Source: Flavobacteriaceae bacterium UJ101 (GTDB taxonomy: Bacteria; Bacteroidota; Bacteroidia; Flavobacteriales; UJ101). From it: a stretch of DNA of 64,000 nt. The notes beneath the pieces were generated by a model that worked only from the letters and a program-made list of their open reading frames with translations, did not search any database and was not told where the DNA came from. The number at the start of each line of letters is the position of its first letter. Positions within the stretch are counted from its first letter, which is position 1. The position numbers and the translations under genes were made by a program. The stretch is taken from contig CP016269.1 in assembly GCA_001880285.1 (NCBI GenBank), forward strand, positions 1,064,501 through 1,128,500. The letters run 5' to 3'. Positions 4,964-62,436 of the stretch are shown piece by piece.

Positions 4964-5021
4964 TGTAGTAGGAATGTAGGTTTGACTATTTTTTTGCTTT
5001 AGCTGAAAATATATTCCTTTG
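4964..5021 (+). promoter_or_regulatory. Promoter of the secreted-protein operon with tandem TGTAG boxes
   Basis: TGTAG occurs at 4964-4968 and 4975-4979, 11 bp apart. The -7-like element TTCCTTTG is at 5014-5021, its TTTG starting 43 bp after the second box. A TTG at 4994-4996 lies 17 bp before it. The 16-mer AAAATATATTCCTTTG (5006-5021) is identical in the promoter of the repeat protein at 14.9 kb. Predicted transcription start is about 5025. Confidence 0.7.
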
Positions 5022-5043
5022 AAATATGAAAAGTAATAAGGAA

Positions 5044-8000
5044 ATGAAAAAGATTTTATTATTGATGATTAGTTTCATAATCACAGAAATGGGTGCTCAG
5101 TCACCAGGAGGTATATCTACTGGTATGACTGGATGGTTTAAAAGTGATGGATCAATCTATACAGATGCTGGTTCAACTCTTGCCAATAAAGAAGGAGATA
5201 AAGTACAACAATGGAACGATTTATCAAATAATGCTGTTTTTTTAAATAATAATCCTCAACAGCTTAATGATAATAACAAACCTACCTTAACATTAAATGG
5301 AATTAATTTCCATCCTGCTGTTAATTTCACTTCTAATAATAATTTTGAAACTCCTACTGCATTTAGAGCGAATGAAATACGTAGTGGACAGAATTCGTCA
5401 GGATACGCTGTTTTTATCTCTAATAAAAGTGGAGATGCTGCTATTTTTGATCAAGGAGGAACAGGAACTGATAATTTTATTTTAACATCAGATAGGTTAC
5501 AGTTTGGAGGAGGATCGGTTAGTTATTCAACCCGAGCAAGGAATCAACCGTATTTAGTTTCAGGAATACGAGATACAAGTTTAACCCAAGCTTTTTTAAA
5601 TGGATCAGCTAATGGTTCAAGAACCGGATCACAAAATACCAATCCTAACCAAAGATTTGCTCTAGGGCAAAATACAGCAGCTGGTGATGATTTAAATGGA
5701 ATGATAGCAGAAGTTCTTTTTTATAATGTAACACACACTCAAACTCAAAGAGAAAAAATAGAATCGTATTTAGGACTAAAATACGGAATATCATTAAGTC
5801 ATAATTATATAGATTCAAAAGATACCATTTTTTGGAACACCAATACAAACACAAGCTTTAATAATGATATTACAGGAATTGGTAGGGACGATGCTAGCGG
5901 ACTTAATCAAAAGCAATCGAGTTCAGTAAACTCTGATGATCCTATTACAATGGGGCTTGGCGGAGTATTTAATTCAAATGCTGAAAATACGAATACATTC
6001 ACAAATGACCAGACTTATACCGTTTGGGGGAATAATAATGGAAACGCATTAAACACAATTGCTTCTACAGGTTGTGGAGATACGGACACCCGATTAGAAC
6101 GAATATGGTTAGTACAAACCAAGAATAATCAACAAGAAGTTGAAATAAAAATAGATGGAAGTAAAATAGCCTATGCTGCAAGTACACATGAAGTAAATTT
6201 AATTATTGGTACAGATCCAACAATGGATAGTTATGATTATAGTTACCCAGTAGTTTGGGATGGAATAAATGGTGTAATAAAATATACATTCCCAGCCAAT
6301 ACTAACACCTATTTTTCTTTAGCAGCAAAACCTAAAGTAGGATCTTGTGACACTTGTGATTTTTCTGGAAGAAAAACGCTAAACTGGAGAAGATCAGGTT
6401 GGCCTAGAGGAGCTAATACACTATCAAACATTTCTGTTGGAGGAGGAGTTTTAACTGTTAAAGCTACTTTTTCTGATCCTGCTAACGTAGAGTATAATGC
6501 TTCTTCTTTTCCTAGAAGAAGAGGAAGAACAATGTATTTGGCTAGACGAGACGATAATGATAACGCATCGTATACATCAACATTAGAGTTCTCTAAAGCA
6601 GCTAAAGTAAAATTTAGAATTCATGATATAGATAAAGAAGGTAATGCTGTTGATGACGTAACGGTTATTGGATATTGTGGAACAGAGGCTGTAGCACCAA
6701 AATTATATCATGTAAGAAATGGCAGTTCCTATACCATCAGCGGTAATACAGCCGGAAATGGTCCAAGAAATCGATATTATTATAATAGAAAATCTAATAT
6801 GGATGTAGAATTTGATGCCCCTGTTGAGAAAATAGAAATCATATGGAAAGTAACTCATTTAAATAAACAAGTTGGATTTCAACGATTGGGTATTGGTTCT
6901 TTAACCTTTTCATGCCCCGAATTAATTCCTATAACCCCAGATAATATTATTGTAATAAAAAGTGTTGAAGACGATAATCCCCTCCTTTGTAACGAAGTAT
7001 TGTACAATTTTGAAATTGTTAATAGTAATTGTGCAGATAAAACGGTTAATATTTCAGATGTATTGCCTTCAGGTATGTTATGGGTAAAAGAAGGATTAAC
7101 TGAGGCAAAATTATCAGGTGCAATAATTAATGACTATGCCAATACGGATACTCTCTCTATTAATGATATTGTTATTCCAGGAGGTAGTACATTATCTTTT
7201 TCAGCACTAGCCTATTTTGATTCATCAGCAACAGCGGGGACATATAATAATCAGGCCACTATGACTGTTAAAAATGGTGTAGCAGGCCCCTATTTAAGTT
7301 ATGATGCGAATAATTTAAAAACACCAAGTGTAACATCATTAACGGCAAATAGCGGTTCTAAACCTTACATTCCAGAGGCTACGATGAGTATTAATTCAAC
7401 CGAGTGTTACCCAGATAAGAGCAATACAACACGAACTGTAAGTATTGAATTTAATAACACTTCTGGATCAGATGTTGATGGCATTAACTTCTCTACAATT
7501 CTTCCTGAAAATGCTATTATTGTAGATGGAACTTTATCAAGTTTATTATCAGGATCACTAGTCACAGCTTATGGTAATACAGAGATATTGGATATAGAAA
7601 ATATGACTATTCCTAATGGTAAGACGACTATTACATTTCAACTGAATACAAATGCGTCAGAACAAGATCTTATATTTTTTGGAGAGGTTTCATTATATCA
7701 AGATGATGTCGATTGTGGTGATGAAGTATCCTATGCAACCAATGCTATTATGGTACCTGTATGTAAGGCTTGTTATAATAATGGAACAAACACAGGAACA
7801 TCTCTAAACTCTACAGTAGGAATCACAACTTTAAATCGCACAACAAATTCTAAAGAATGGGTTCATAACAAGAAAAATGGATTAATTGTCTTAGAATCTA
7901 AAACAAAAGGATTTGTATTGACTCGTATTTCAGATCCTGAAACCTCTATTTCAGATCCTAAAGAAGGAATGGTCGTTTTTGATACAGACGACAAATGTCT

Positions 8001-8061
8001 TAAACTTTATAATGGAACAAAGTGGATTTGTTCAATACAAACATGTAACACAAAAAATTAA
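5044..8061 (+). CDS. Large secreted multidomain protein (LamG-like, beta-sandwich and DUF11-like domains)
   Basis: The 1005-residue protein has a Sec signal peptide ending near GAQ. Next comes a concanavalin/LamG-like domain (about 22-230) followed by the GIGRDDASG motif common in flavobacterial surface proteins. A cysteine-bounded beta-sandwich (about 435-625) opens with CDTCDFSGRK and closes with IGSLTFSCP. Two DUF11-like repeats follow (about 635-920). The last 75 residues form the module GLIVLESK...GMVVFDTDDKCLKLYNGTKW. I chose ATG 5044 over ATG 5026 because it gives a cleaner signal peptide and because the predicted transcription start is about 5025, which would leave 5026 leaderless. 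It is 4 bp upstream of the next gene. A surface or adhesin role is inference. Confidence 0.8.
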   Translation: MKKILLLMISFIITEMGAQSPGGISTGMTGWFKSDGSIYTDAGSTLANKEGDKVQQWNDLSNNAVFLNNNPQQLNDNNKPTLTLNGINFHPAVNFTSNNNFETPTAFRANEIRSGQNSSGYAVFISNKSGDAAIFDQGGTGTDNFILTSDRLQFGGGSVSYSTRARNQPYLVSGIRDTSLTQAFLNGSANGSRTGSQNTNPNQRFALGQNTAAGDDLNGMIAEVLFYNVTHTQTQREKIESYLGLKYGISLSHNYIDSKDTIFWNTNTNTSFNNDITGIGRDDASGLNQKQSSSVNSDDPITMGLGGVFNSNAENTNTFTNDQTYTVWGNNNGNALNTIASTGCGDTDTRLERIWLVQTKNNQQEVEIKIDGSKIAYAASTHEVNLIIGTDPTMDSYDYSYPVVWDGINGVIKYTFPANTNTYFSLAAKPKVGSCDTCDFSGRKTLNWRRSGWPRGANTLSNISVGGGVLTVKATFSDPANVEYNASSFPRRRGRTMYLARRDDNDNASYTSTLEFSKAAKVKFRIHDIDKEGNAVDDVTVIGYCGTEAVAPKLYHVRNGSSYTISGNTAGNGPRNRYYYNRKSNMDVEFDAPVEKIEIIWKVTHLNKQVGFQRLGIGSLTFSCPELIPITPDNIIVIKSVEDDNPLLCNEVLYNFEIVNSNCADKTVNISDVLPSGMLWVKEGLTEAKLSGAIINDYANTDTLSINDIVIPGGSTLSFSALAYFDSSATAGTYNNQATMTVKNGVAGPYLSYDANNLKTPSVTSLTANSGSKPYIPEATMSINSTECYPDKSNTTRTVSIEFNNTSGSDVDGINFSTILPENAIIVDGTLSSLLSGSLVTAYGNTEILDIENMTIPNGKTTITFQLNTNASEQDLIFFGEVSLYQDDVDCGDEVSYATNAIMVPVCKACYNNGTNTGTSLNSTVGITTLNRTTNSKEWVHNKKNGLIVLESKTKGFVLTRISDPETSISDPKEGMVVFDTDDKCLKLYNGTKWICSIQTCNTKN

Positions 8062-8065
8062 TACG

Positions 8066-8578
8066 ATGAAAAATATACTAATTACATTACATATACTTTT
8101 TATAGGATTTATTCAAGGACAAATTGCTATAGGGAAGACGGATCTAAGTAGTAAATCATCTATACTAGAATTTAATGATGATAAAGGAGGTATTATACTA
8201 CCTTATGTAACAAGTGAAACAGCAGTCTCTACACCATCAGAAGGAACTTTTATTTTTGATTCAACAGATAAGAAAGTTAAACTTTATGATGGAACTACAT
8301 GGATTGATCTGTCCATTAATCAAGGAACAGTTGATACCACTTCACAAAATAGTTTATCAGAAAATGATGGAGGAGTGATACTAGGAGCGGCCAAATCATC
8401 AGCTAAAGGGGTATTAGTTTTAGAATCAAGTGATAAAGCAATGATTTTACCTAAGGTTGCAGATCCTCATTTAAATGTTATATCACCAGAACCTGGTACA
8501 ATGGTGTACGACACGACAAGTAAAACGATTAGTTTTTATAATGGAACACAGTGGTCATACTGGGGAGAACCTTTATAA
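8066..8578 (+). CDS. Small secreted protein made of two copies of a YDTxxKxxxxYNGTxW module
   Basis: The 170-residue product has a signal peptide (MKNILITLHILFIGFIQGQ) and then two copies of one module: SSILEFNDDKGGIILPYV ... FIFDSTDKKVKLYDGTTW and AKGVLVLESSDKAMILPKV ... MVYDTTSKTISFYNGTQW. The same module ends the upstream protein and starts the proteins at 14.8 and 62.4 kb. The ATG at 8066 is 4 bp after the upstream stop, so translation is probably coupled and both are driven by the promoter at 4964-5021. No catalytic domain is present. Function is unknown; a structural partner of the upstream protein is plausible. Confidence 0.8.
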   Translation: MKNILITLHILFIGFIQGQIAIGKTDLSSKSSILEFNDDKGGIILPYVTSETAVSTPSEGTFIFDSTDKKVKLYDGTTWIDLSINQGTVDTTSQNSLSENDGGVILGAAKSSAKGVLVLESSDKAMILPKVADPHLNVISPEPGTMVYDTTSKTISFYNGTQWSYWGEPL

Positions 8579-12453: not shown

Positions 12454-14811
12454 TTAAGGTCTAAAATGAACTTCTTCTAAGCGAATGTAAACGGTAGTTT
12501 CTGTTTCTCTTGCAATTCCACTTGAATCATCATATTGATTAATTTTACCTGACAGTATAATTTCGCCATTTAAACCTACTTTATTTTTAAATTTCGTATA
12601 GTTACTAACTGTTATAGTTAATTTTGCTTCATCAATAGGGCGTCCAGGAGTAGTATTGGTTACAGAAATTCCATAATCATTTAGATTATGAGAAGTATCT
12701 CGCAATGTTAATTTGTATTTGTCTATTTTTCCAGTGAATCGATAGGAACTATAAACATATTTAGTTGGATCAGTAACAGACGCTAGTTTAGTATGGTATC
12801 TTGCCGCAATAGCAAACTCTGCTTTTCCACCCCAAAATGAAAGTAAAGAAGTTTTAGTGTTAGATACCGGATATTGAGCTTTCTCTTCATCACTCATTAA
12901 TGATCGCATTGGAGTGTTATAGTTGAAATTTTTAGCATTACCAACATAAAGACCTCTTATTGATTTAGACTTTACAGGAAGTGAAACAGAACAAGTTTTC
13001 CCTTCTATATTAATGTTGAAAATAGCATTGCCAGCAGCATTTGGCGTTCCTGAAATAGTAAAAGTAAGATTCCCATTTCCTGAAGAAAAAGTACCTGCTT
13101 TTAAAGAAGCAGTTAAACCTGTCACGCTAGTTGAATTAACAGTTTGAGCTTTATAAGTTTTTCCATTTCCACCAGTATAAGGGATGGTAAAAGATGATGT
13201 ATCATCTTTCACTCCTTCTGTTAAATCTACTATGTTGATTATTTTTGAACAATTAAGTGAAATGGAACTGGTTACAGGAATACTTACCGAACAGCTTTTT
13301 CCTCCTATGTTAATCTTAAAATTAGCATTTCCTGATCCACTTGGCGTTCCTGAAATAGTAAAAGTAAGATTTCCATTTCCCGAATTTACATTTCCTGCCG
13401 TTAGAGATGCAGTTAAACCTGTTACTTCTGTTGAACTGATCGTTTGAGCATTGTAAGTACCTCCATTTCCACCAACATAAGGAACTTTGAAAGAAACTCC
13501 TGAAGAAGAAGTCCCTTCTGTTAGGCTTCCTGTTAATGTTCTACTAGAGCAATTTAAATTAGTTACACTAGCTGTTAACTGATTAACAGGAATCGTTACA
13601 GTACAATTCTTTCCTCCTACACTAATAGCAAAACTTGCATTTCCTGAAGCACTAGGTGTTCCTGAAATAGTAAAAGTAAGACTTCCATTACCTGATTTTA
13701 TATTTCCTGCAGTTAAAGAAGCAGTTAAACCTGTTACACCTGTTGATTTGATCGTTTGAGCATTATAAGCACCTCCATTACCACCGGTATAAGGGATATT
13801 AAAAGAAACACTAGAAGCTGTAGTACTTTCAGTAAGTGTTCCTGTTGTAGTTCTACCAGAACAGTTTAAAGTAGTGACAGAAGCGGCCGTTGGACCAGAA
13901 ACAGGAACATTAATTAGACAGGTCTCTCCACCAATTTCAATTTCAAAAAAAGCATTTCCCGCTTTATCAGGAGTTCCTCCAATTTCAACTGAAAAAGTAC
14001 CATTTTTATTTAAAGTACCTGTTGCGTGATATAAAAATAAAGTACCTTTAGAAGTTGAAGCTGCTAAAGGAGTATACGATTTAACAGGATAAGTAATAGA
14101 GGTGGCATTAGAATAAGGTATTCGAACAAATCCGCTAATTTGTTCATTTGCTTTTACATTGTTTGGAACTGTGATATTTGAACAATCAAGAGCAAATGTA
14201 GGAGCTACGGATACAGGAATACTTACTGTACAGCTTTTCCCTCCTACGGTGATATTAAAATTAGCACTTCCTGAGGTACTAGGTGTTCCTGAAATAGTAA
14301 AAGTAAGGTTCCCATTACCTGAATTAAAATTGCCAGACGCTAAAGAAGCTGTTAAACCTGTTACTCCTGTTGAACTAATTGTTTGAGCACTATAACTACT
14401 TCCATTTCCTCCTGTATATGGAACTTTGAAAGAAACTCCCGAAGCAGCTGTGCTTTCTGTTAAGTTTCCTGTGATTGTTTTACTAGCACAATCTAAAGTA
14501 CTTATGATAGGAGGAATTACTGAAATACAATTCCAAGTAGTACCGTCATATACTTTTAAACATTTTTCTGTTAAATCATAAAAAATAGACCCTGCGACTA
14601 CTTTTTTACCTGATTTTGGATTAACTACATGATCTTCAGCATTAGTACCTGACATGCTAGGAAGGACTAATGGATTAGTTTTTGAATTGGATGTTGAATT
14701 GGTTAAATCTAACACTCCGTTTGGCGTATTATTTCCTATGCCAACTTGGGCTATAAGAAAGCTGGAAAATAAAATCCCCCACCATTTGATAAAAGTACGT
14801 TTTTTTTTCAT
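12454..14811 (-). CDS. Secreted protein with five tandem beta-rich repeats
   Basis: The 785-residue protein starts at the ATG at 14811 (MKKKRTFIKWWG), which gives a proper signal peptide; the longer in-frame start overlaps the promoter. Residues 24-97 carry the VGIGNNTPNGVLDL ... FYDLTEKCLKVYDGTTW module shared with other secreted proteins here. Five repeats of about 100 residues follow, starting near 106, 208, 315, 419 and 519, each from L(D/N)CS to a hydrophobic strand near VSIPV. Copies 1, 3, 4 and 5 are very similar (VTGLTASL, GNLTFTISGTP); copy 2 is strongly diverged. Residues 618-785 are a unique beta-rich end with no sorting domain I recognise. Likely a surface protein; binding partner unknown. 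Confidence 0.82.
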   Translation of the reverse strand: MKKKRTFIKWWGILFSSFLIAQVGIGNNTPNGVLDLTNSTSNSKTNPLVLPSMSGTNAEDHVVNPKSGKKVVAGSIFYDLTEKCLKVYDGTTWNCISVIPPIISTLDCASKTITGNLTESTAASGVSFKVPYTGGNGSSYSAQTISSTGVTGLTASLASGNFNSGNGNLTFTISGTPSTSGSANFNITVGGKSCTVSIPVSVAPTFALDCSNITVPNNVKANEQISGFVRIPYSNATSITYPVKSYTPLAASTSKGTLFLYHATGTLNKNGTFSVEIGGTPDKAGNAFFEIEIGGETCLINVPVSGPTAASVTTLNCSGRTTTGTLTESTTASSVSFNIPYTGGNGGAYNAQTIKSTGVTGLTASLTAGNIKSGNGSLTFTISGTPSASGNASFAISVGGKNCTVTIPVNQLTASVTNLNCSSRTLTGSLTEGTSSSGVSFKVPYVGGNGGTYNAQTISSTEVTGLTASLTAGNVNSGNGNLTFTISGTPSGSGNANFKINIGGKSCSVSIPVTSSISLNCSKIINIVDLTEGVKDDTSSFTIPYTGGNGKTYKAQTVNSTSVTGLTASLKAGTFSSGNGNLTFTISGTPNAAGNAIFNINIEGKTCSVSLPVKSKSIRGLYVGNAKNFNYNTPMRSLMSDEEKAQYPVSNTKTSLLSFWGGKAEFAIAARYHTKLASVTDPTKYVYSSYRFTGKIDKYKLTLRDTSHNLNDYGISVTNTTPGRPIDEAKLTITVSNYTKFKNKVGLNGEIILSGKINQYDDSSGIARETETTVYIRLEEVHFRP
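12515..14496 (-). repeat. Coding tandem repeat, five units of about 300 bp
   Basis: Five in-frame units begin at about 14496, 14190, 13869, 13557 and 13257 on the minus strand and end near 12960; the remaining part of this span is the unique C-terminus. Units 1, 3, 4 and 5 keep long shared blocks also at DNA level (for example around the GGTGTTCCTGAAATAG sequence on the plus strand), so recent duplication or gene conversion is likely. Confidence 0.75.
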
Positions 14812-14868: not shown

Positions 14869-14937
14869 CAAAGGAATATATTTTTATTCCGAAACTAAAG
14901 ATTATGCACTATACATTTTCACTACATTTACACAACA
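14869..14937 (-). promoter_or_regulatory. Promoter of the repeat protein with three 11-bp-spaced boxes
   Basis: On the minus strand TGTTG (14937), TGTAG (14926) and TGTAT (14915) begin at exact 11-bp steps. TTTG of the -7 element begins at 14872, 43 bp after the last box. AAAATATATTCCTTTG (14884-14869) is identical to the 5.0-kb promoter. No TTG is visible at the usual -33 spacing, which suggests a need for an activator. The leader to the ATG is about 54 nt. Confidence 0.7.
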
Positions 14938-15267: not shown

Positions 15268-15302
15268 ATAAAAAGATAGAGCAGGCTGACAAACCTGCTC
15301 TA
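15268..15302 (-). terminator. Terminator of small RNA 1
   Basis: TAGAGCAGG and CCTGCTCTA form a 9-bp stem around an 8-nt loop, followed on the minus strand by a T-rich tail (ATCTTTTTATG). The GAGCAGG stem is identical to that of the terminator at 43.3 kb. Confidence 0.8.
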
Positions 15303-15396
15303 ATGGATACATGAACTATTTAATCAACTATCATGCACAAGTAGGGGAGTGTTTTATGTAAAATCATTATAAAACTTTCGCCTACTTTATAATCTA
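15268..15396 (-). ncRNA. Candidate small RNA 1
   Basis: A transcript of about 130 nt is bounded by a promoter with tandem boxes and a strong terminator. Inside, 15381-15387 pairs with 15339-15345 (AAGTAGG with CCTACTT) and 15369-15375 with 15351-15357 (GTTTTAT with ATAAAAC), separated by a symmetric 5x5 internal loop. The 3' half contains TTCATGTA, also found in candidate 2, and GTTGATTAAATAGTTC, also found at 4.8 kb. The only frame is 15 codons and overlaps the hairpin. No Rfam family could be tested; 6S-Flavo and Flavo-1 should be checked. Confidence 0.5.
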
Positions 15397-15399
15397 TAA

Positions 15400-15457
15400 C
15401 AAAGAAATATGTTTTTAAAATCAAAAAAAAATATACATCCACATCATAAACACTACA
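15400..15457 (-). promoter_or_regulatory. Promoter of small RNA 1 with tandem boxes
   Basis: On the minus strand TGTAG begins at 15457 and TGATG at 15446. TTTG of the -7 element TTTCTTTG begins at 15403, 43 bp after the second box. TTTCTTTGTTATA here matches TTTCTTTGTTGTA at the 43.4-kb promoter. A usual -33 TTG at 17-23 bp is missing. Confidence 0.6.
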
Positions 15458-15526
15458 TTTTATTAATAACGTAACATACTATTTATCAATCTTTTATATT
15501 ATTTGCCTTTTGAAGAATATTAACTT

Positions 15527-15583
15527 TGTAGTGTTTTTGTAGTAGCAATGTTAATATAATATATAATAAATAGATTGGTTTTG
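15527..15583 (+). promoter_or_regulatory. Plus-strand pair of TGTAG boxes, target unclear
   Basis: Two perfect TGTAG pentamers start at 15527 and 15538. The nearest TTTG starts at 15580, 42 bp after the second box rather than 43. A transcript would run antisense into the end of the regulator gene at 15646-17187. It may be a control site for the regulator's 3' region or a spare binding site. Confidence 0.35.
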
Positions 15584-15645: not shown

Positions 15646-17187
15646 TCATAGTGTTTGAATCCATTTTTCGAAATTGATTTTAGAAGGTAAATTGAGTTTT
15701 TTCCTTATTCGGTATCGTTTAATTTCGATTGCCTTTGTGGTAACATAATTGATATCTGCAATTTCTTTAGTAGAAAAATTAAGTTTTACTAAAGCACAAA
15801 ATTTCAGATCACTTACACTTAAATTTTTATGTTCTTGTTTTAAATTAGAAATAAAGTTAGGATAAATTTCTTCAAATTTAGCAAGAAAGAATTTATCTTC
15901 TTTTTTTATAGATTCTTGTAACTCATCAATATTTTGACTTTTTAAAAGGAAGATCTCATTTTTTAATTGATCAACTTTTAATTTCACAGATTCTATTACC
16001 TGTCTTTTTTCTACAATTCTCTTATTATATTCTTCTATCTTACTTTTATTTTTATGTTGAACTTTTTTCCATATTATATACATAGAGAATTTTAATACTA
16101 AAAAGCCTAATAAAAAGTAAAGAATCAATTCTTTTTTTGATTTTAAAATCGAATTTTTATTTTGTTTGTTAATGGTTTGATTCACTAAATATCGTAAGCT
16201 TTTTTTTGCTTTTTCTGTGCTATCTTTGAGTTCAAGATATTTAATTTTATAGTGATTTTTTAAGATATCATCTTTCAGCACATCATAGGTTTTGACAATG
16301 TTAAAATAACTCTTTGCTTTTTCAACAGGTTTATGAAGTGAGTCAAAAATAATTTCACTTTTTTTATAATAATGTAACGCTTTTAATGGATCTTTTTTTA
16401 AAAAATGAATATCCCCTAAATGAAGGTAGGATTTCCCAATAGCATTTGCATGATTAATTTTTTGTGATGCTTTTAACGACTTTTCAATATAGACTAGAGC
16501 CGAATCCAATTGTTTCTCCGTATGAATAAAATAAGAAGCAAAATTATTGTACGTATTTCCCATAAGATGATAATACCAAGGGGAGTTTTTCTGATTTTGG
16601 AAGTAAGAAAGTGATTTTTTTAAATTATATAATTGATTATAAGGATCAGCCATTGATTTGGATATTTTAAATTGTAAATCGTGAATTAAACCTCTTATAA
16701 TCGAACTATTTTTGATTTTCTCAGTATTCGACAATGTTCTTAAAGCCTTTTTTGTATAATGTAAAGCTTCTAGATAATGTTCCGATTGATAATAACCTTC
16801 TGCTATCAGTCTTAAAGATTCTGCATATATTACTTTTTCATGTAACGATTTTTTTTTCAATAGTTTATTGGCTTCTAAAGCATGACTTAGAAGGTTTTCA
16901 TTATCACCTAATTGTTGGTATATATAAGCTAAAGAAATTTCTGATCTTCCGATTACTTGCTGCAAATTGTTTTCTACTGCCTCTAATCGTATTTGGTTAA
17001 TTTCCTTGATTCCAATCTCTGGATTTTTGCTAGGCAACATCTGATCAATTCTTGTTAAAGAATTCATCAAATGTTCAGTATGATGGTTTTTTTTGTTTTC
17101 AGATGAACAACCAAAATAAAGGTTGGCAAATATAATTAGTAACAATATGTTACCCCAATTAAAGATTCTTTTTCCCATACTTATCAT
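15646..17187 (-). CDS. Membrane-anchored TPR regulator with LuxR-type HTH (1)
   Basis: The 513-residue protein starts with a hydrophobic segment and lipobox-like cysteine (NLYFGC, C27; ATG at 17178 is an alternative start). TPR-like helical repeats fill about residues 40-330, a membrane helix lies near 351-369 (LILYFLLGFLVLKFS), a coiled coil follows (about 380-430), and residues 456-513 form a LuxR/GerE-type helix-turn-helix (LNFSTKEIADINYVTTKAIE ... RYRIRKKL). The layout implies periplasmic sensing coupled to cytosolic DNA binding. It is a paralogue of the next upstream gene. Their position beside the boxed promoters makes them candidate controllers, which is inference. Confidence 0.85.
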   Translation of the reverse strand: MISMGKRIFNWGNILLLIIFANLYFGCSSENKKNHHTEHLMNSLTRIDQMLPSKNPEIGIKEINQIRLEAVENNLQQVIGRSEISLAYIYQQLGDNENLLSHALEANKLLKKKSLHEKVIYAESLRLIAEGYYQSEHYLEALHYTKKALRTLSNTEKIKNSSIIRGLIHDLQFKISKSMADPYNQLYNLKKSLSYFQNQKNSPWYYHLMGNTYNNFASYFIHTEKQLDSALVYIEKSLKASQKINHANAIGKSYLHLGDIHFLKKDPLKALHYYKKSEIIFDSLHKPVEKAKSYFNIVKTYDVLKDDILKNHYKIKYLELKDSTEKAKKSLRYLVNQTINKQNKNSILKSKKELILYFLLGFLVLKFSMYIIWKKVQHKNKSKIEEYNKRIVEKRQVIESVKLKVDQLKNEIFLLKSQNIDELQESIKKEDKFFLAKFEEIYPNFISNLKQEHKNLSVSDLKFCALVKLNFSTKEIADINYVTTKAIEIKRYRIRKKLNLPSKINFEKWIQTL

Positions 17188-17312
17188 ATTTAACTACTTG
17201 TGTAAAGAGTTAAATAATCCCATGAATCCTGCAACAAAAGTACAATATAATTCAATAATTAGCAAAAATTAACAAAATGAATAATTATATGTTAAAATAT
17301 GTAATTATATTT

Positions 17313-18767
17313 TTAAATATTGTTAATCCACTTATCAAAATTTGTTTTAGATGTTAGTTTAAGTTTCTTTCTAATTCTATAACGTTTTACATCAACAGAT
17401 TTGACAGAGATAAATAACATATCCGCTATTTCCTTTGTGCTAAAATTAAGTTTAACTAGAGCACAAAACTTTAGATCTTGAGAAGTTAGTTCTCCTGAAT
17501 GTTTTTTAAGGTTCAGGATAAAATCAGGATAAATTTGGGTGAATTTTGCTAAAAAAAGTTGATCATCTTTTTTAATAAGAGTTAGTAATTCATCTAAATA
17601 TTGATCTTTAAGAGTAGAAATCTCACTTTCTAATTGATTGATTTTTCGTTCATCCTTCTGAATGATATTTCTCTTTCGTGATAATCTTTTTTGTTTGTTC
17701 TTTAATAAGTAATAGAAAAGAAAGGAGGTAAGGATTAAAACAGATAGAATAAGAATAGTATAATATGCTTTTGTTCTTTCCAAACTTTCTTCAAAATTAT
17801 TTGCTATTTCATGATTGGCAAAAATCCTTAACAGTTTTTCTTTTTTATTTATTTGATTTCTTAGAATTAAGTGTTTAAAATAATATTTTGATGCATTGAT
17901 ACTATCATTTAAAGAGAGGAATAAAGAATTTAATTTAGAATATGTTTTATCTAATTGATTATGGGCATTAACAGAGTCAAACTTTTTTGCACTTTTTTTA
18001 TAATACATTAAAGCTTGAGAATAATCCTTCTTGTGAAAATGAATATTAGCTAAATTCATCCATGAAATCCCACTACCTAAAGCATAATCAATATTTATAG
18101 ATTTGTTTAAAGCTTCATTAGCATATAAAAAAGAAGAATCAAGATTCTTTTCTTTAAAGTGGTAAAGACTAAGTTTATTATAGGTGCTGGTTAAGACATA
18201 TGGGACAAATGTGTTTTTAGAGTTTTTTTTAAGCACTTTTTTTGACTTTAATAGAAAATTATATGCTTCTTGTCTATGATTAAGGGTGTTTTGAATATCA
18301 GATTCAACATTATAGGTTAACCCTTTTAACATGAGTGTATTATCATTTTTAGGAAGGTTATCTAAATTTGAATATACATTATTTATATAATCCAAAGATT
18401 CAATGATATGGTCTGAACTATAGTAAGCTATGGCTACTGCTAATATAGATTTTGTATATAAAAGTTTATCTAGATAAGTTTCTTGAGGTAAAGTTTTATT
18501 AGCCTCTATAGCATATTTTAAAAAGTTATTATAGTCGTTTTTATTATAGTACGCATATGCTAGAGCTAAATTTGCTTTACCTAAAGCTGTAGGAAAGTCT
18601 TTTTTTAATGCGTCAAGTCTTATTACTTCAATAGAATTTATGGTTTTTTGAGAAGAATACCGCCACTCTACTCTATTTAACTTATTTATTAGGTCACGTT
18701 CTTCTCTAGAAGTTATACAACTTGATAAAAAAAATATATATATAAATAAAAGTTTCAAATATTTCAT
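17313..18767 (-). CDS. Membrane-anchored TPR regulator with LuxR-type HTH (2)
   Basis: The 484-residue paralogue of the neighbour has the same order: signal segment with cysteine 17 (IFFLSSC), TPR repeats (about 30-320), one membrane helix near 336-356 (YYTILILSVLILTSFLFYYLL), a coiled coil, and a C-terminal HTH in 427-484 (LNFSTKEIADMLFISVKSVD ... RYRIRKKLKL). The end (KTNFDKWI) is nearly the same as in the neighbour. The 125-bp gap to gene 1 contains a TACTTTTG element at 17235-17242, so gene 1 probably also has its own promoter. No TGTAG boxes precede either gene. Signal sensed is unknown. Confidence 0.85.
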   Translation of the reverse strand: MKYLKLLFIYIFFLSSCITSREERDLINKLNRVEWRYSSQKTINSIEVIRLDALKKDFPTALGKANLALAYAYYNKNDYNNFLKYAIEANKTLPQETYLDKLLYTKSILAVAIAYYSSDHIIESLDYINNVYSNLDNLPKNDNTLMLKGLTYNVESDIQNTLNHRQEAYNFLLKSKKVLKKNSKNTFVPYVLTSTYNKLSLYHFKEKNLDSSFLYANEALNKSINIDYALGSGISWMNLANIHFHKKDYSQALMYYKKSAKKFDSVNAHNQLDKTYSKLNSLFLSLNDSINASKYYFKHLILRNQINKKEKLLRIFANHEIANNFEESLERTKAYYTILILSVLILTSFLFYYLLKNKQKRLSRKRNIIQKDERKINQLESEISTLKDQYLDELLTLIKKDDQLFLAKFTQIYPDFILNLKKHSGELTSQDLKFCALVKLNFSTKEIADMLFISVKSVDVKRYRIRKKLKLTSKTNFDKWINNI

Positions 18768-43306: not shown

Positions 43307-43310
43307 ATTT

Positions 43311-43345
43311 AATAAAACTAAAGAGCAGGTAAATAACCTGCTCTT
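43311..43345. terminator. Terminator of small RNA 2 and of the beta-barrel gene
   Basis: AAGAGCAGG and CCTGCTCTT form a 9-bp stem around a 7-nt loop. On the minus strand it is followed by TAGTTTTATT; on the plus strand it follows the beta-barrel gene and can act for it too. Confidence 0.8.
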
Positions 43346-43427
43346 ATTGAAAAAAATTAATTAGTACATGAAAAAAGTTATTCATTGTCACTAAATATTT
43401 AATAAGGGGGAACGTCCATATAGTGTA
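43311..43427 (-). ncRNA. Candidate small RNA 2
   Basis: A transcript of about 115 nt lies between a boxed promoter and a strong terminator and has no homologous frame to candidate 1. It contains ATAACTTTTTTCATGTA; the ending TTCATGTA is shared with candidate 1 and ATAACTTTTTTCAT with candidate 3. Its terminator stem is the same GAGCAGG/CCTGCTC as in candidate 1, although the two loci are 28 kb apart. Confidence 0.5.
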
Positions 43428-43430
43428 CAA

Positions 43431-43488
43431 CAAAGAAACATTATTATACTCTAGATTTAAAAAAAATACCCCCTACACTTTCCATACA
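43431..43488 (-). promoter_or_regulatory. Promoter of small RNA 2 with tandem boxes
   Basis: On the minus strand TGTAT begins at 43488 and TGTAG at 43477. TTTG of TTTCTTTG begins at 43434, again 43 bp after the second box. No TTG is found at -33 spacing. The -7 block and the following GTT(G/A)TA match small RNA 1. Confidence 0.6.
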
Positions 43489-43577
43489 TTTTTTAAAATA
43501 CTGTAAAATAATCGCTTACATTTTAGAAGTATGGCGTTTGTATGGCCATTGTAATCATTAGATTAAATAAATAAGCA

Positions 43578-44783: not shown

Positions 44784-44808
44784 TTTCTTCGGTTTAAAAA
44801 AATAAAAA

Positions 44809-44860: not shown

Positions 44861-45754
44861 TTATTGTTGCCATAAGTCAGATTCCACATCTCGAATTCCT
44901 GATTCAATTCTTCTGTTTTCCTCTATTTGACCTTTTGCATCACCTACAATATAATCTTTTACTGCTCTACCTTGCATGTTTTGTTCTTTATAAATCACAG
45001 AATTAAAACGGCGTGCATTAATCATATCATCAAATGATATATCAGCAGAAATGTTTCGACCACTAAATACTTTATTCTTATGTAAGACTTTACGTGCATC
45101 TGCATACCAAACCCAAAATAAGTCATAGTATGAATCATCTACAATACCTGCATTAATGGCTTGCATATCAGGTCCCATAGGAGCAATTCCTAATGGACGG
45201 TAACGCATCTCTCCTAGTTTTTTATCAATATACCACATTCCCATGATTTTGAACATTTTAACGTCTGTATTACGTAATTCGTTAAAATCTAAATCATCTT
45301 CAGTAATGGTTTCACCAGCAGCAATTTTATCTTTAGCCCAATCTGATGTATCTACAATAGAAAATTTTGAAGTTGCACTTGCATAATCTGTCTTAGTACC
45401 AAATGTATCATCTGTGTAAATTTCTTTAATATCACCAGACTTTATACCATCACTGATAGCATCATACAATGATTTTTGACCAATTCCTGCAATCCCTTCA
45501 GAAGTATGATAGTATGGTTGATTGATTCTTTCGTTCATATCAATTACTTCCCATACGATCTTTGACCAAAGAATGTCTCGATCTTTTACTTCTCCATAAG
45601 GTAGAGGCTCATCTTCCTCTTCGATAGAATCGTTTTCAGCACGCTCTAATGCTTTCTTTGCAAATTCTTCAGGAGATTTTACATTTAGTAAATTTTGAGC
45701 AGAAATTAATCCTGCAAAAATTAAACATAGTGAACTCAAAATATTTTTCATCAT
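44861..45754 (-). CDS. gldN: Gliding motility/type IX secretion protein GldN
   Basis: GldN is a periplasmic part of the type IX secretion ring that joins GldK. The 297-residue protein has a signal peptide ending near LISAQ and conserved PYGEVKDRDILWSKIVWEVIDMNERIN and FKIMGMWYIDKKLGEMRYRPLGIAPM segments of the family. The gene is last in gldK-L-M-N and is closed by a strong terminator. The first two codons are both ATG. Confidence 0.95.
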   Translation of the reverse strand: MMKNILSSLCLIFAGLISAQNLLNVKSPEEFAKKALERAENDSIEEEDEPLPYGEVKDRDILWSKIVWEVIDMNERINQPYYHTSEGIAGIGQKSLYDAISDGIKSGDIKEIYTDDTFGTKTDYASATSKFSIVDTSDWAKDKIAAGETITEDDLDFNELRNTDVKMFKIMGMWYIDKKLGEMRYRPLGIAPMGPDMQAINAGIVDDSYYDLFWVWYADARKVLHKNKVFSGRNISADISFDDMINARRFNSVIYKEQNMQGRAVKDYIVGDAKGQIEENRRIESGIRDVESDLWQQ

Positions 45755-45772
45755 ACGTAATTTTTAAAATTG

Positions 45773-47314
45773 TTACTTCACAGTAATTACAATTGGAGTT
45801 GCATTTTTAATTGGCACTGTAGAAGTAGCTTTAATGTCAAAAATTTGAACTGTTTGTCCTCTTCTTAACTTACCAAATGCAGCTTTTGCTTCTGCACTCA
45901 TTCGGTTACCAGAACAATTCATTGTAAGCTTACCTGGAACTTTCACTTTAAAACTTGTTACATTTGCTTTAATATCAAATAAAAAGTTAGGGAACCCAGC
46001 TTCTACTGTCACTTTACCTATTGAACTCACTGGTAAAGCTAATGCAGACTCTCCACGTACCATACCTTGTGGTTTTGGTACATTTTTAATTCTATATGTT
46101 ACTTTTTCTGTTACGGTTTTTCCTTTTGGTGTTGTACCTGATACTGTAAATGTTACGGTTTTTCCAGCACCTGGCTTATACATATATTTTCCTCCTCCTT
46201 TTGGAGACAATGATCCTGAGGAAGCTGTTAATTTAACAGTACCATCTTTTGCTCCACTCATCGTAGCACTCATAGGGTTATTTAAACCTCTATATACTAC
46301 GTTCATTTTATCAGCTGTTACAGCTCCATATGCAATATCCGGGATCTTTTGCTCGATAATCTCCCCTGCTACATAATATTTTTGATTAAATGGATAACTA
46401 ATCGTTTTACCCGCACCGTTTACATACGAGATTTCTCCACTTATAGTTTTATATCCTACAGATCCTGTTCCTAATTCAAATTCAGCTACACCATTCTTCA
46501 TTGGACGTGAAACACCATTCACTACCACACTTGATTGAATTGAACTATCATATGCTCCTAACAAAATTTTAGCACTTGCTGGATCACCTTGTTTAATAGT
46601 TGACGGTGCAATTACAATAGGTTCAAAGCTGTTTAACTCAACATCCTGAATTAATTTTGTTGCTAACATTGAAGAAACAATCTTCGACTCTTCATTACGA
46701 ACATTCGTTTCTAATAATGATAAGTTTGTCAAAGATGCTACGTTAGGTTGTTCAAAGAACGTTTCATTTAACCATGTTTTATTCTTTTTTGTAGGAGTGG
46801 TAGAAAAGAATTTTTCAACACGAGACTTATCTTCTCCTTTTAAAGTTGGAACAGATAATAAATACGTTCTAAATTCATTTACCTTTGCTTCAAATTCTAA
46901 AGCTTTATCCGTAGGTTTACCTCCTCCTTTAAAGAATAATTTATCTAACTTTTCAGATGATTCCAATACTTTATAATCTAAATCTTCAGAAGCCATATCA
47001 ATTTCATTAGCTCCTATTTCAGACTTAATACCGTCTATATATGCAATAAATTCATCTGCTTTTGTTTTTACCTCTTGGGATTTTTCATATACAGAAGCAT
47101 AACGTTCTGGATCATCTTGAGCTTTCTTCTCTAATCCATTATAAAAACTTTTATTTGCTTCTGTAGTTTGTCCAACTACATCTTCTAAAGTTGCATTGGT
47201 ATTACCAAAAGATCTCAATACCTCACGATCTACATTCATTGCCATCATAGCGATGAATATTAGATACATCAGGTTGATCATCTTCTGACGTGGTGATAAT
47301 TTTGCTTTTGCCAT
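45773..47314 (-). CDS. gldM: Type IX secretion motor protein GldM
   Basis: GldM forms, with GldL, the proton-driven motor of the type IX system. The 513-residue protein has one N-terminal membrane helix (LINLMYLIFIAMMAMNVDREVL type start, about 10-32) with the conserved Arg-Glu after it, followed by a long periplasmic part of helical and Ig-like domains ending in TSTVPIKNATPIVITVK. It lies 19 bp from gldN. Confidence 0.96.
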   Translation of the reverse strand: MAKAKLSPRQKMINLMYLIFIAMMAMNVDREVLRSFGNTNATLEDVVGQTTEANKSFYNGLEKKAQDDPERYASVYEKSQEVKTKADEFIAYIDGIKSEIGANEIDMASEDLDYKVLESSEKLDKLFFKGGGKPTDKALEFEAKVNEFRTYLLSVPTLKGEDKSRVEKFFSTTPTKKNKTWLNETFFEQPNVASLTNLSLLETNVRNEESKIVSSMLATKLIQDVELNSFEPIVIAPSTIKQGDPASAKILLGAYDSSIQSSVVVNGVSRPMKNGVAEFELGTGSVGYKTISGEISYVNGAGKTISYPFNQKYYVAGEIIEQKIPDIAYGAVTADKMNVVYRGLNNPMSATMSGAKDGTVKLTASSGSLSPKGGGKYMYKPGAGKTVTFTVSGTTPKGKTVTEKVTYRIKNVPKPQGMVRGESALALPVSSIGKVTVEAGFPNFLFDIKANVTSFKVKVPGKLTMNCSGNRMSAEAKAAFGKLRRGQTVQIFDIKATSTVPIKNATPIVITVK

Positions 47315-47354
47315 TCTTTCTTAAAAATTTAATTATTATTTAAATTGACAAAAA

Positions 47355-47885
47355 TTATCCGTTATTTTTACCACTCATTGCAGATAACATACCTCCGTAA
47401 ACATTATTTAATGAAGATAAGTTACCAGATAATGTATTTAACTGTTCACTTACATTTTTAGCATCTTCTGTAGATTGATTTAAAGCGTCTACAGAGTGAC
47501 CTAATTTTTCAAAACTATGTTTTAAACTTGTTACTAATTCAGCATCAATGCGAGCATCTTTTAATAAATCATCTAATTTTTGAGATAAAGAACCTCCTTC
47601 TAATTCAGGCTCAGCTTGAATTGATGATTTTCTTGCTACTGGCTCTCCATCAGCTAATTCAGGGTATGCTTTTTCCCAATCATATTCTCCTGCTGGAGGA
47701 TCAAATGCAAAGATTACGAAGATAATTGCTTCTGCAATTAATCCAATTGCTAAAACCACAGTTCCATCTAATGGACCTATTGACCAGTGATTAATTTTGA
47801 ATAATGCTCCTAAGATTACAACGGCTGCTCCTAACGAGTACACCATATTTAACATCTTATCTTTAGCTTTTGTTTTTGCTGCCAT
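47355..47885 (-). CDS. gldL: Type IX secretion motor protein GldL
   Basis: The 176-residue inner-membrane partner of GldM has two membrane helices (about 12-32 and 41-62) with the key glutamate in the second (LIAEAIIFVIFAFDPP). The soluble tail is helical. At 176 residues it is at the short end for GldL. Confidence 0.95.
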   Translation of the reverse strand: MAAKTKAKDKMLNMVYSLGAAVVILGALFKINHWSIGPLDGTVVLAIGLIAEAIIFVIFAFDPPAGEYDWEKAYPELADGEPVARKSSIQAEPELEGGSLSQKLDDLLKDARIDAELVTSLKHSFEKLGHSVDALNQSTEDAKNVSEQLNTLSGNLSSLNNVYGGMLSAMSGKNNG

Positions 47886-47915
47886 AATTTTCTAATATTT
47901 ATTTTTTCTTAATTT

Positions 47916-49361
47916 TTATCTTGTTCTAACTGCTGATCTTGCCTTTGTACTTCGTGCACTTTCCGGAATCGTTTGTACGGTTCTAAATCCAATATAAGAA
48001 GTTGCTGAATCTGCATATTCCCAATCACGAGAAGCTACTTGTAAATAATATCCTATATCTTTCCACGATCCTCCTCTGATAACTTTTTTAGGATTAGACA
48101 TACGACCATGAGCTAAATTAGGGTTCATTGTAGCAGATTGTAAATAACCTGAATTATCATAGGCTGATTCTGTCCATTCTGAAACGTTTCCAGCCATATC
48201 ATATAATCCAAATCCATTTTCAGGGAATGATTTAACTTTTGCTGTATAAATCCAATTACCTTCTTTCTCGTCTTCCATATAATTACCTCGTTTTGGCTTA
48301 AAGTTAGCCATATAACATCCTCTATCATCTGATAGATAAGGTCCTCCCCATGGGTAAGTACCTGCATCTAGACCTCCTCTTGCTGCATATTCCCATTCAA
48401 ATTCAGTCGGTAATCTATATTTTTTAGACTTTGGTTTGCTCTTTGATTTATTATAAATCGTTGCATTTTTCGTTCTATAAGAACAGAATGCTTGCGCTTG
48501 CCACCAATTTACACCTACTACAGGATAATCACGGTATGCATCATGCCACATGTATTCTTCATGCATTGGCTCATTAAATGAGTAATTAAAATCACGTGTC
48601 CAAACTGTTGTATCAGGATAAACAGATACTTCTTTTGAATGAATAAAGTCTTTACGACTTGCTTTTGCTTTTGCTGCAGCTTTTGTATCAACCCATTGGT
48701 ATTTATATTTAATTTTTGACCAATCAATAAAACGTTCATCATCAATACGTTCTTCTGGAGCTATATACATACTTTCTAATACTTCAGCATATTCAACATC
48801 TGGATAATCTCCAGTACCCCAGTATAAAGGAACGTCCCAATTTAATTGTTTTACTTCATCATATCCTTCACCAGATCCTTTTTCTGCTATCATTTGGTAA
48901 TAAGGTAAATTATCTTCTTCTTCATAATCATCCTCCATACCTACATAAGCATATTCACTAATTCCTTCACCTTCTCCACCTCCAGACTCATAAGCTCTTT
49001 CTGCTAATAAGTATCTCGCGATAGAATCACGTGTGTAGTATACAAATTGTAAATATTCTCCATTTGTAATTTCCGTTTCATCCATAAAGAAAGAAGAAAC
49101 TGTTACCGTACGAGGATCTGCATCAAAATTTCCTGTAAAATCATAATCACTTTGACCTACAACAAATGATCCTGAAGGAATTCGAACCATACCTAATGGT
49201 TGTTCTAAATTCCATTTTTTTGTTGGTTTCACACCAACTAATTGACCTCTAGTCGTTCTAGAATCATATGATGTGCTACTACCACCTCCTCGGCTTCCTC
49301 CAAAACAAGAGAATAACATTGGAATTACAATTGCAATAATTAGTATTCTTTTTATAATCAT
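47916..49361 (-). CDS. gldK: Type IX secretion lipoprotein GldK
   Basis: GldK is an outer-membrane lipoprotein with a formylglycine-generating-enzyme-like fold that forms a periplasmic ring with GldN. ATG 49361 gives a 481-residue product with lipobox LFSCFGG (cysteine near 19). The fold has MVRIPSGSFVVGQSDYD, EITNGEYLQFVYY, YRLPTEFEWEYAARGG and VIRGGSWKDIGYYLQ. First gene of the gldKLMN unit. Confidence 0.95.
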   Translation of the reverse strand: MIIKRILIIAIVIPMLFSCFGGSRGGGSSTSYDSRTTRGQLVGVKPTKKWNLEQPLGMVRIPSGSFVVGQSDYDFTGNFDADPRTVTVSSFFMDETEITNGEYLQFVYYTRDSIARYLLAERAYESGGGEGEGISEYAYVGMEDDYEEEDNLPYYQMIAEKGSGEGYDEVKQLNWDVPLYWGTGDYPDVEYAEVLESMYIAPEERIDDERFIDWSKIKYKYQWVDTKAAAKAKASRKDFIHSKEVSVYPDTTVWTRDFNYSFNEPMHEEYMWHDAYRDYPVVGVNWWQAQAFCSYRTKNATIYNKSKSKPKSKKYRLPTEFEWEYAARGGLDAGTYPWGGPYLSDDRGCYMANFKPKRGNYMEDEKEGNWIYTAKVKSFPENGFGLYDMAGNVSEWTESAYDNSGYLQSATMNPNLAHGRMSNPKKVIRGGSWKDIGYYLQVASRDWEYADSATSYIGFRTVQTIPESARSTKARSAVRTR

Positions 49362-49464
49362 ATCTTTAGATATTTTCAAGTCGCAAAATTAACTACTTTT
49401 TTAGTAAATCAAAATTTCTTTTTGTTCTATTTTAACGTTCTTTGTTAAATATTATTATATTTCC

Positions 49465-61440: not shown

Positions 61441-62436
61441 CTATCTCTTTACACTCAATACTTCCACTGTACCAATAGTTTCAAGACAAATGGTTCCAGT
61501 AGGAAGACTCTCACTACATTGCTTTAATGAAGCTGTCGAAATAATAATATTCCCATTTTTATCTATTGAAAGTCTTTCAACAGGTACTGTTGAATTTTCT
61601 GCTGTAGTTTGAAAAGAGATTTTACCTGGCCTAGAAGTATACGAATGACTTCCATCTGTGCTCATTAATATTCTACTAGAAGGTTTAACATTTCCAAAAA
61701 AACCATTAGTAGCAGCTGTTAATGACTCTAAATTTAATAATGAAGCTCCTGATGGAACATTTCCAACATTAGTCAACGAACTTGCATCACTCAAATCGGC
61801 TTCAATTCTTATTCCATGCAGTGAAATTGCCTGATTAGGATTATCTGTAATTCCCATTGCCATTGTAATATCACTATCTCCATTTCCTATTAAAGTAAAC
61901 ATATCTTTTTCATTTAAAGGAAACCCTGCTATTTCAGTTTCAAACTCTGCAAAGGCATCTAAAACAAGAGGTGCCACATTCCCTTTTGATAAAATATGAT
62001 TCCCTTTTTCATCAATCATATATGGGTTTCCTGCATCTGCTGCTCTAATATTTTCTATAATAGGAACTGAACTTAGTCCAACAGCAGCTCCAATTGCTCC
62101 AGTATCCGTTTCTCTATAACGCCATTCTAAATCAACAGCGTCTGATCCTGAATCTAGATTACATAACCAAGTTGCTTCAGAATGCTTATATAGCTTAACA
62201 CACTCTTCATCAGTATCATATACTAATAACCCATTTTGATCTGCCCCAACAACCATTGCATTTATTTCACTAGTCGTAAGTCGCGGTATCAAAAGTCCTT
62301 CTGGATCTGTATTTGCATTATCAGGATTATCAACAATATCAAATGTTCCTTTTGGAGAATTTGTATTAATCCCCACCTGTGAACTCCCCAAAATGCTCAG
62401 TAAAAATGAGCACCACAACAGTAATTTTTTTTTCAT
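61441..62436 (-). CDS. Secreted protein with N-terminal VGINTNSP module
   Basis: ATG 62436 (MKKKLLLWCSFLLSILGSSQ) gives a 331-residue protein with a signal peptide; the upstream ATG is rejected. Residues about 20-105 are the shared module VGINTNSPKGTFDI ... LLVYDTDEECVKLYKHSEATW. The rest is beta-rich with tail-fibre-like phrases (GHISL style: GNPYMIDEKGNHILSKGN, VERLSIDKNGNIIIST), as in phage-tail-like or surface fibres of this phylum. A TATGTTTG element at 62456-62463 (minus) is the promoter. Confidence 0.75.
   Translation of the reverse strand: MKKKLLLWCSFLLSILGSSQVGINTNSPKGTFDIVDNPDNANTDPEGLLIPRLTTSEINAMVVGADQNGLLVYDTDEECVKLYKHSEATWLCNLDSGSDAVDLEWRYRETDTGAIGAAVGLSSVPIIENIRAADAGNPYMIDEKGNHILSKGNVAPLVLDAFAEFETEIAGFPLNEKDMFTLIGNGDSDITMAMGITDNPNQAISLHGIRIEADLSDASSLTNVGNVPSGASLLNLESLTAATNGFFGNVKPSSRILMSTDGSHSYTSRPGKISFQTTAENSTVPVERLSIDKNGNIIISTASLKQCSESLPTGTICLETIGTVEVLSVKR

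Follow-up and report, generated by a model that had tools for sequence, protein, structure and literature searches.

R1 and R2, two neighbouring genes on the minus strand (15646-18767), likely specify membrane-integrated one-component activators that bind directly to a set of local direct-repeat boxes. This reading is supported by the anatomy of the two proteins, the architecture and spacing of the boxes, their confinement within the genome, the repeated co-location of such regulators and repeats in related genomes, and the covariation of recognition helix and operator, all of which are shown. Membrane topology, direct binding, the signal and activation as opposed to repression are inferred, as no binding or expression data are available.

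R1, R2 and the boxed promoters around them

Positions refer to the window, i.e. the whole stretch of 64,000 nucleotides that was analysed. The two regulators are:

15646..17187, minus strand: R1, 513 aa, TPR-TM-coiled-coil-LuxR-HTH regulator with a lipobox-like N-terminus (..NLYFGC)
17313..18767, minus strand: R2, 484 aa, paralogue of R1 with a lipobox N-terminus (..FLSSC), TM at 337-355 and GerE HTH at about 426-475

Both open reading frames are complete at these coordinates. The proteins are paralogues (36% identity over 501 residues, E 2e-88), have the DLKFCALVKLNFSTKEIAD stretch in common and share one layout, consisting of a signal or lipoprotein N-terminus, a TPR solenoid, one membrane helix, a coiled coil and a LuxR-type HTH. 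TPR_12 is matched in both (Pfam; 44.8 bits, 1.4e-11, and 33.1 bits, 6.4e-8; cut-off 30.1). GerE (PF00196) reaches 28.3 bits in R2, above the Pfam cut-off of 23.5, and 14.4 bits in R1, below it. No kinase or receiver domain was matched by Pfam in either protein. In the AlphaFold model of R2, a helical solenoid is predicted with confidence at about residues 21-260 (pLDDT mostly 74-95). It is followed by one long helix that contains the membrane segment, then by a coiled-coil stretch and the small helices of the HTH; beyond about residue 268 the model is of low confidence throughout. The only strong internal hydrophobic segments are residues 354-372 of R1 and 337-355 of R2. In R2 this segment is flanked by two K/R residues before and seven after it, while the count for R1 is ambiguous (five and five). 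Both N-termini end in a lipobox-like cysteine (YFGC in R1, LSSC in R2) and resemble lipoprotein signals, lipidation being inferred from sequence. The paired TPR, membrane-helix, coiled-coil and LuxR-HTH architecture proposed in the sequence-only reading therefore held, with the reservations that the GerE match of R1 lies below the cut-off and that the topology is only predicted.

The box is a 7+4+7 direct repeat, TGTAGTG-N4-TGTAGTG, with an 11-bp period. The following boxes are found in the window, each measured over 58 nt from its start to the end of the -7 element:

4964..5021, plus strand: TGTAGTA-GGAA-TGTAGGT to -7 (TTCCTTTG), promoter of the two-gene surface cassette
14869..14926, minus strand: TGTAGTG-AAAA-TGTATAG to -7 (TTCCTTTG), promoter of the 785-aa surface protein gene
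15400..15457, minus strand: TGTAGTG-TTTA-TGATGTG to -7 (TTTCTTTG), promoter of putative sRNA1
15526..15583, plus strand: TTGTAGT-GTTT-TTGTAGT to a weak -7 (TGGTTTTG), reading toward the R1 3' end
43431..43488, minus strand: TGTATGG-AAAG-TGTAGGG to -7 (TTTCTTTG), promoter of putative sRNA2

All four strong boxes (4964 plus, 14926, 15457 and 43488 minus) start exactly 58 nt before the -7 TTTG ends. Since the flavobacterial -7 element has been placed at -12 to -5 (PMC9723704), the repeat covers about -62 to -45. When the 3.07 Mb genome (3,074,209 bases) was searched with the composite pattern, allowing three mismatches, four true matches were obtained, all of them in the window and spanning 38.5 kb around R1/R2. 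One further match, with 3 mismatches, lies inside a gene, and a reversed control pattern gave one match genome-wide. The pattern was derived from the four sites, so that weaker sites elsewhere are not excluded.

Three boxes, at 14.9, 15.4 and 15.5 kb, had been reported beside the regulators in the sequence-only reading; those at 14.9 and 15.4 kb are real, and the 15.5-kb box is convergent on the R1 3' end. The absence of a box upstream of R1 or R2, likewise claimed, was confirmed. Three corrections are required: two of the window's boxes drive putative sRNAs and not proteins, the 15.5-kb box points toward the R1 3' end, and the boxed promoter at 43.5 kb lies 26 kb away from R1/R2, with no TPR-TM-LuxR regulator within 24 kb of it. 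A second 11-bp repeat, GTATGGC-GTTT-GTATGGC at 43529 (plus strand), is located back to back with the 43488 box and has no TTTG at 58 nt; together with 15457/15526, this makes two divergent box pairs in the window.

The predicted targets of the boxed promoters are:

5044..8061, plus strand: large surface protein with a C-terminal module, start probably ATG 5044
8066..8578, plus strand: small module protein (IGK..ILEF..GIILP), second gene of the surface cassette
12454..14811, minus strand: surface-module protein, 785 aa from ATG (MKKKRTF), probable target of the 14926 box
15270..15395, minus strand: putative sRNA1, two hairpins and an intrinsic terminator, ends inferred
43310..43426, minus strand: putative sRNA2, terminator GAGCAGGT..ACCTGCTC

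The start of the large surface protein is assigned to ATG 5044 because the transcription start is predicted, by inference, near 5026. The pair of a large and a small gene seen at 5044-8578 recurs beside TPR-LuxR genes of other genomes. Putative sRNA1 folds better than expected both as a whole (z -4.96) and without its terminator (z -3.79), while in putative sRNA2 the terminator alone folds better than chance. No Rfam match at the gathering score was found for the sRNAs in the window, and in eight related loci only tRNAs were matched. The idea that sRNA1 is the remnant of a surface gene was also considered. The 3' part of this RNA is similar to that of a surface gene at locus L106, but the corresponding frame has no start codon, and the question is unsettled. 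The stretch common to the L106 surface-gene 3' region (about 6640-6790, minus strand) and the 3' half of sRNA1 (window 15270-15345, minus strand) is CCCMYTTGTRCATGATA..TTCATGT, before a GAGCAG-type terminator.

The surface module itself, QVGIGTxxPxxxLDI..GxxVYDxxxxCLKLYxGTxW, has about 90 matches genome-wide, for example at window 61441-62436, and corresponds to no convincing Pfam or NCBIfam family. Elsewhere in the window (44861-49379, minus strand), four consecutive genes resemble gldK, gldL, gldM and gldN of the type IX secretion system, as judged from sequence alone.

Regulators, surface genes and direct repeats in other loci

The same genome has three further family genes besides R1/R2: full-length TPR-TM-LuxR genes at 1379 and at 1454 kb, and a short form without TPR at 204 kb. 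At all four regulator loci a surface-module gene is found within about 1.3 kb. The two other full-length genes have boxes of their own adjoining surface-module genes, one a TTGAGTA repeat (59 nt to the end of TAGATTTG), the other TACAGGG-TCTA-TGCAGGT (58 nt). No box was seen at the 204-kb locus.

No R2 orthologue was found at 1e-40 in 395 genomes of the order, where its own family is represented by this genome alone. A sister family within the same order, with a Chryseobacterium-like genus of 4-5 Mb genomes, has many TPR-TM-LuxR homologues. A comparison set of about 90 loci from related genomes was compiled, in which TPR-TM-LuxR genes repeatedly adjoin surface-module genes. A surface-module gene lies within 4 kb at 36 of 60 genus loci and 7 of 12 wider-family loci, and is absent from the neighbourhood at the remaining 24/60 and 5/12. 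By our own estimate, based on 307 surface-module matches in five genomes (about 24 Mb in total), at most about 12% of such stretches would contain a surface gene by chance. An internal membrane helix is present in 115/115 family members of 380 aa or more; 40 of these 115 have a lipobox-like N-terminus according to a simple rule, lipidation again being inferred.

Several further features were observed in these loci. Proteins of ~150-190 aa that lack TPRs but have a membrane helix and a LuxR-type HTH (L105:6369-6929, L114:9251-9706, L209:3460-3924, L214:5835-6299) adjoin full-length members or surface genes and could be partner or modulator forms. At L144, L146, L148 and L155, the large surface protein is preceded by a gene whose product often has RPPP, or RPP plus a few residues, at its C-terminus; this gene may be a third cassette member and is absent from the window. 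At L229:5461-8625, two similar tandem copies of regulator, box and surface-gene fragment possibly reflect a recent duplication.

Direct repeats with an 11-bp lag are enriched around the regulators. In an independent genus set, 60 intergenic lag-11 repeats were counted where both a regulator and a surface gene are near, compared to 17.4 +/- 4.3 for other lags. Near regulators without a surface gene the count is 43 (other lags, 17.6 +/- 4.3), and elsewhere in the same loci it is 20 (14.1 +/- 4.5); lag 22 was excluded from the background. For lag 11 near regulators, the ends of TAnnTTTG cluster at 48-51 and 56-63 nt from the box start, two clusters about one helical turn apart. This phasing was not seen for other lags or for distant regions.

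In total, 48 boxes passed the threshold. The search required lag 11 and the expected promoter distance, so some of them are chance picks, and the related loci of one genus are not fully independent. Among 46 boxes with at least 6/7 matching positions, 14 drive a surface gene that starts within 600 bp on the same strand, compared to 4 with the strand flipped. No clear box was found near several regulators, e.g. at L105, L144, L148 and L150-L152.

The half-sites vary among loci and include TGTAGTG/TGTAGTA, TGCAGTG, GAGTAGG, TGAAGTA, GATGTAT, TGTGATA and GGTACCT. Across 42 boxes, selected blind to the helix sequence, the more similar two boxes are, the higher the identity of the corresponding recognition helices tends to be (Mantel r 0.47, p 5e-4; partial r 0.36 on TPR identity). 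When members with a TPR identity of 45% or more were merged and one member was drawn from each of the 18 clusters (20 draws), the box-helix correlation persisted with a mean r of 0.41 (median p 0.001), and that for TPR was -0.07. It is mainly because the half-site tracks the HTH recognition helix that the TPR-LuxR proteins themselves are inferred to read the boxes, in the absence of binding data.

The arrangement of the window also recurs. At eight Chryseobacterium-like loci, a tandem pair of lipobox TPR-LuxR genes is followed by a convergent TGTAGTA-N4-TGTAGTA box, located 58-59 nt before the end of CATATTTG or CAAATTTG, that drives a conserved 85-95-nt RNA with a terminator, unlisted in Rfam. 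A model of this RNA adds two boxed loci, L230 and L234, giving about ten in all; weak matches at L232, L227, L147, L238 and L152 have no box. The consensus structure consists of the terminator only, without two-sided covariation. In a further genus (L153), a GAGTAGG box directly after the regulator precedes a short terminated transcript. The plan of the window matches the ten loci in its lipobox pair, TGTAGTG boxes and adjoining box-driven short RNAs. The RNA model misses both sRNA1 and sRNA2, its sole match in the window, at 44788, being at chance level. Homology of the window sRNAs with the Chryseobacterium-type RNA, or their membership in one RNA family, is thus not shown.

These data change the standing of the original proposal, which named R1/R2 as the nearest candidate activators on the basis of position only. 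The proposal is supported by the comparative data, binding not being shown, and the link no longer depends on position alone, given the repeats at other TPR-LuxR loci, the helix correlation and the recurrent tandem pair with the near-identical half-site TGTAGTA. The check for boxes without regulators covered only the window's own box pattern in 60 genomes, where matches looked like chance.

Proposed mechanism, alternatives and known systems

In the proposed mechanism, the TPR domain would lie outside the inner membrane, held by the signal or lipoprotein anchor and the internal helix, and would sense something there. The membrane helix and coiled coil would pass its state to paired cytosolic LuxR-type HTH domains, whether in R1/R2 heterodimers or in homodimers being a matter of inference. 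The HTHs would occupy neighbouring positions on the 7+4+7 repeat, offset by one turn of the DNA, at about -62 to -45 relative to the start site, where they would adjoin RNA polymerase at a TAnnTTTG-type promoter. Each family member would read its own half-site, TGTAGTG in the case of R1/R2. The predicted local regulon comprises four promoters within 38.5 kb, which would serve the 785-aa surface protein, the two-gene surface cassette and two small terminated RNAs, and it would also include the convergent box facing R1. Several points count against this mechanism, among them the lack of binding or expression data, the 43488 box with no family regulator within 24 kb, the loci without a nearby surface gene and the regulators without a clear box. 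In addition, LuxR-type HTHs are best known for inverted repeats, and a 7+4 direct repeat is more like a PhoB box.

The repeat geometry underlies the first alternative, in which an OmpR/PhoB-type response regulator from another part of the genome uses the boxes as its operators and R1/R2 act on something else. A 7+4 direct repeat with an 11-bp period is the known PhoB-box geometry, and one boxed promoter is located far from R1/R2. However, different half-sites occur in a single genome and vary with the HTH helix of the TPR-LuxR protein next to them, and the repeats are enriched at TPR-LuxR loci but much more weakly elsewhere in the same loci. This alternative is considered unlikely. Also improbable is a second one, in which R1/R2 bind the boxes but act as repressors or first need proteolytic release from the membrane. 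The regulatory sign cannot be read from sequence, and the convergent 15.5-kb box could make an RNA against R1; the operators are nevertheless located upstream of the core promoter (about -62 to -45) at an almost constant distance, which suits an activator better. Finally, surface-gene islands might gather regulators and repeats by recombination, giving a common address without a common function; surface-module genes are indeed numerous and often clustered, but the repeats are enriched also around regulators that have no surface gene nearby (43 vs 17.6), are phased to promoters and track the recognition helix, which leaves this explanation very unlikely.

Beyond direct activation by R1/R2, a bolder reading is slightly favored over its negation. 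It holds that a large, apparently undescribed Flavobacteriales family of TPR-membrane-LuxR proteins has co-evolving recognition helices and 11-bp-period operators, mutually insulated within one genome, each member controlling a local regulon of its own that consists of surface proteins and/or a structured sRNA, and that the tandem lipoprotein subfamily including R1/R2 has the sRNA as its conserved output. If this is true, operators could be assigned to dozens of uncharacterised Bacteroidota regulators from adjacent sequence, and the pairs of helix and operator would offer a natural collection from which to work out the code by which LuxR-type HTHs recognise direct repeats. The reading would also supply a mechanism by which these bacteria could express their many surface-module proteins selectively, and would link a TPR sensor outside the cytoplasm to small RNAs.

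No published description of the TPR-LuxR/operator system was found in the open-access literature searched, with subscription journals mostly outside it. The window boxes meet the geometry of PhoB-type operators, a property of the DNA that does not identify the protein. The best NCBIfam match of R2 is the BT3442 family (NF053779), which covers the HTH region (2.8e-10) at 39.5 bits, compared to a cut-off of 940, and leaves the rest of the protein unmatched. Among TPR folds, the R2 model matches the Rap/RRNPP peptide receptors RapI, RapF and phage Rap; these are, in contrast, cytosolic proteins of Firmicutes, and the match is at fold level only (about 10-13% identity), comparable to that with eukaryotic TPR proteins. 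FimS/FimR of Porphyromonas gingivalis is a system with a TPR sensor linked to surface-structure genes. The TPR part of one family member weakly matches FimS in NCBIfam (22.6 bits, E 2.9e-5; cut-off 600 bits), but FimS is a histidine kinase that needs a separate response regulator, whereas R1/R2 combine sensor and HTH in one protein. A related C-terminal HTH is found in the Bacteroidota propeller (Y_Y_Y) LuxR-type regulators, two of which are encoded in this genome (451134, 454085). Their sensor, however, is a beta-propeller rather than a TPR domain, and no surface-module match lies closer to them than about 50 kb.

Membrane one-component regulators as a kind are already known; the TPR-LuxR form, with its paired direct-repeat operators and its sRNA outputs, seems not to have been described in the literature searched. 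ToxR and CadC likewise unite in one polypeptide a sensor outside the cytoplasm, a single membrane helix and a DNA-binding domain inside it, the sides of the membrane being predicted for R1/R2. In ToxR and CadC the winged helix is cytosolic and N-terminal, and the periplasmic domain is C-terminal. R1/R2 differ from them in the reversed order of these parts, the TPR solenoid as sensor, the LuxR/NarL-like HTH and the lipobox present in many family members.
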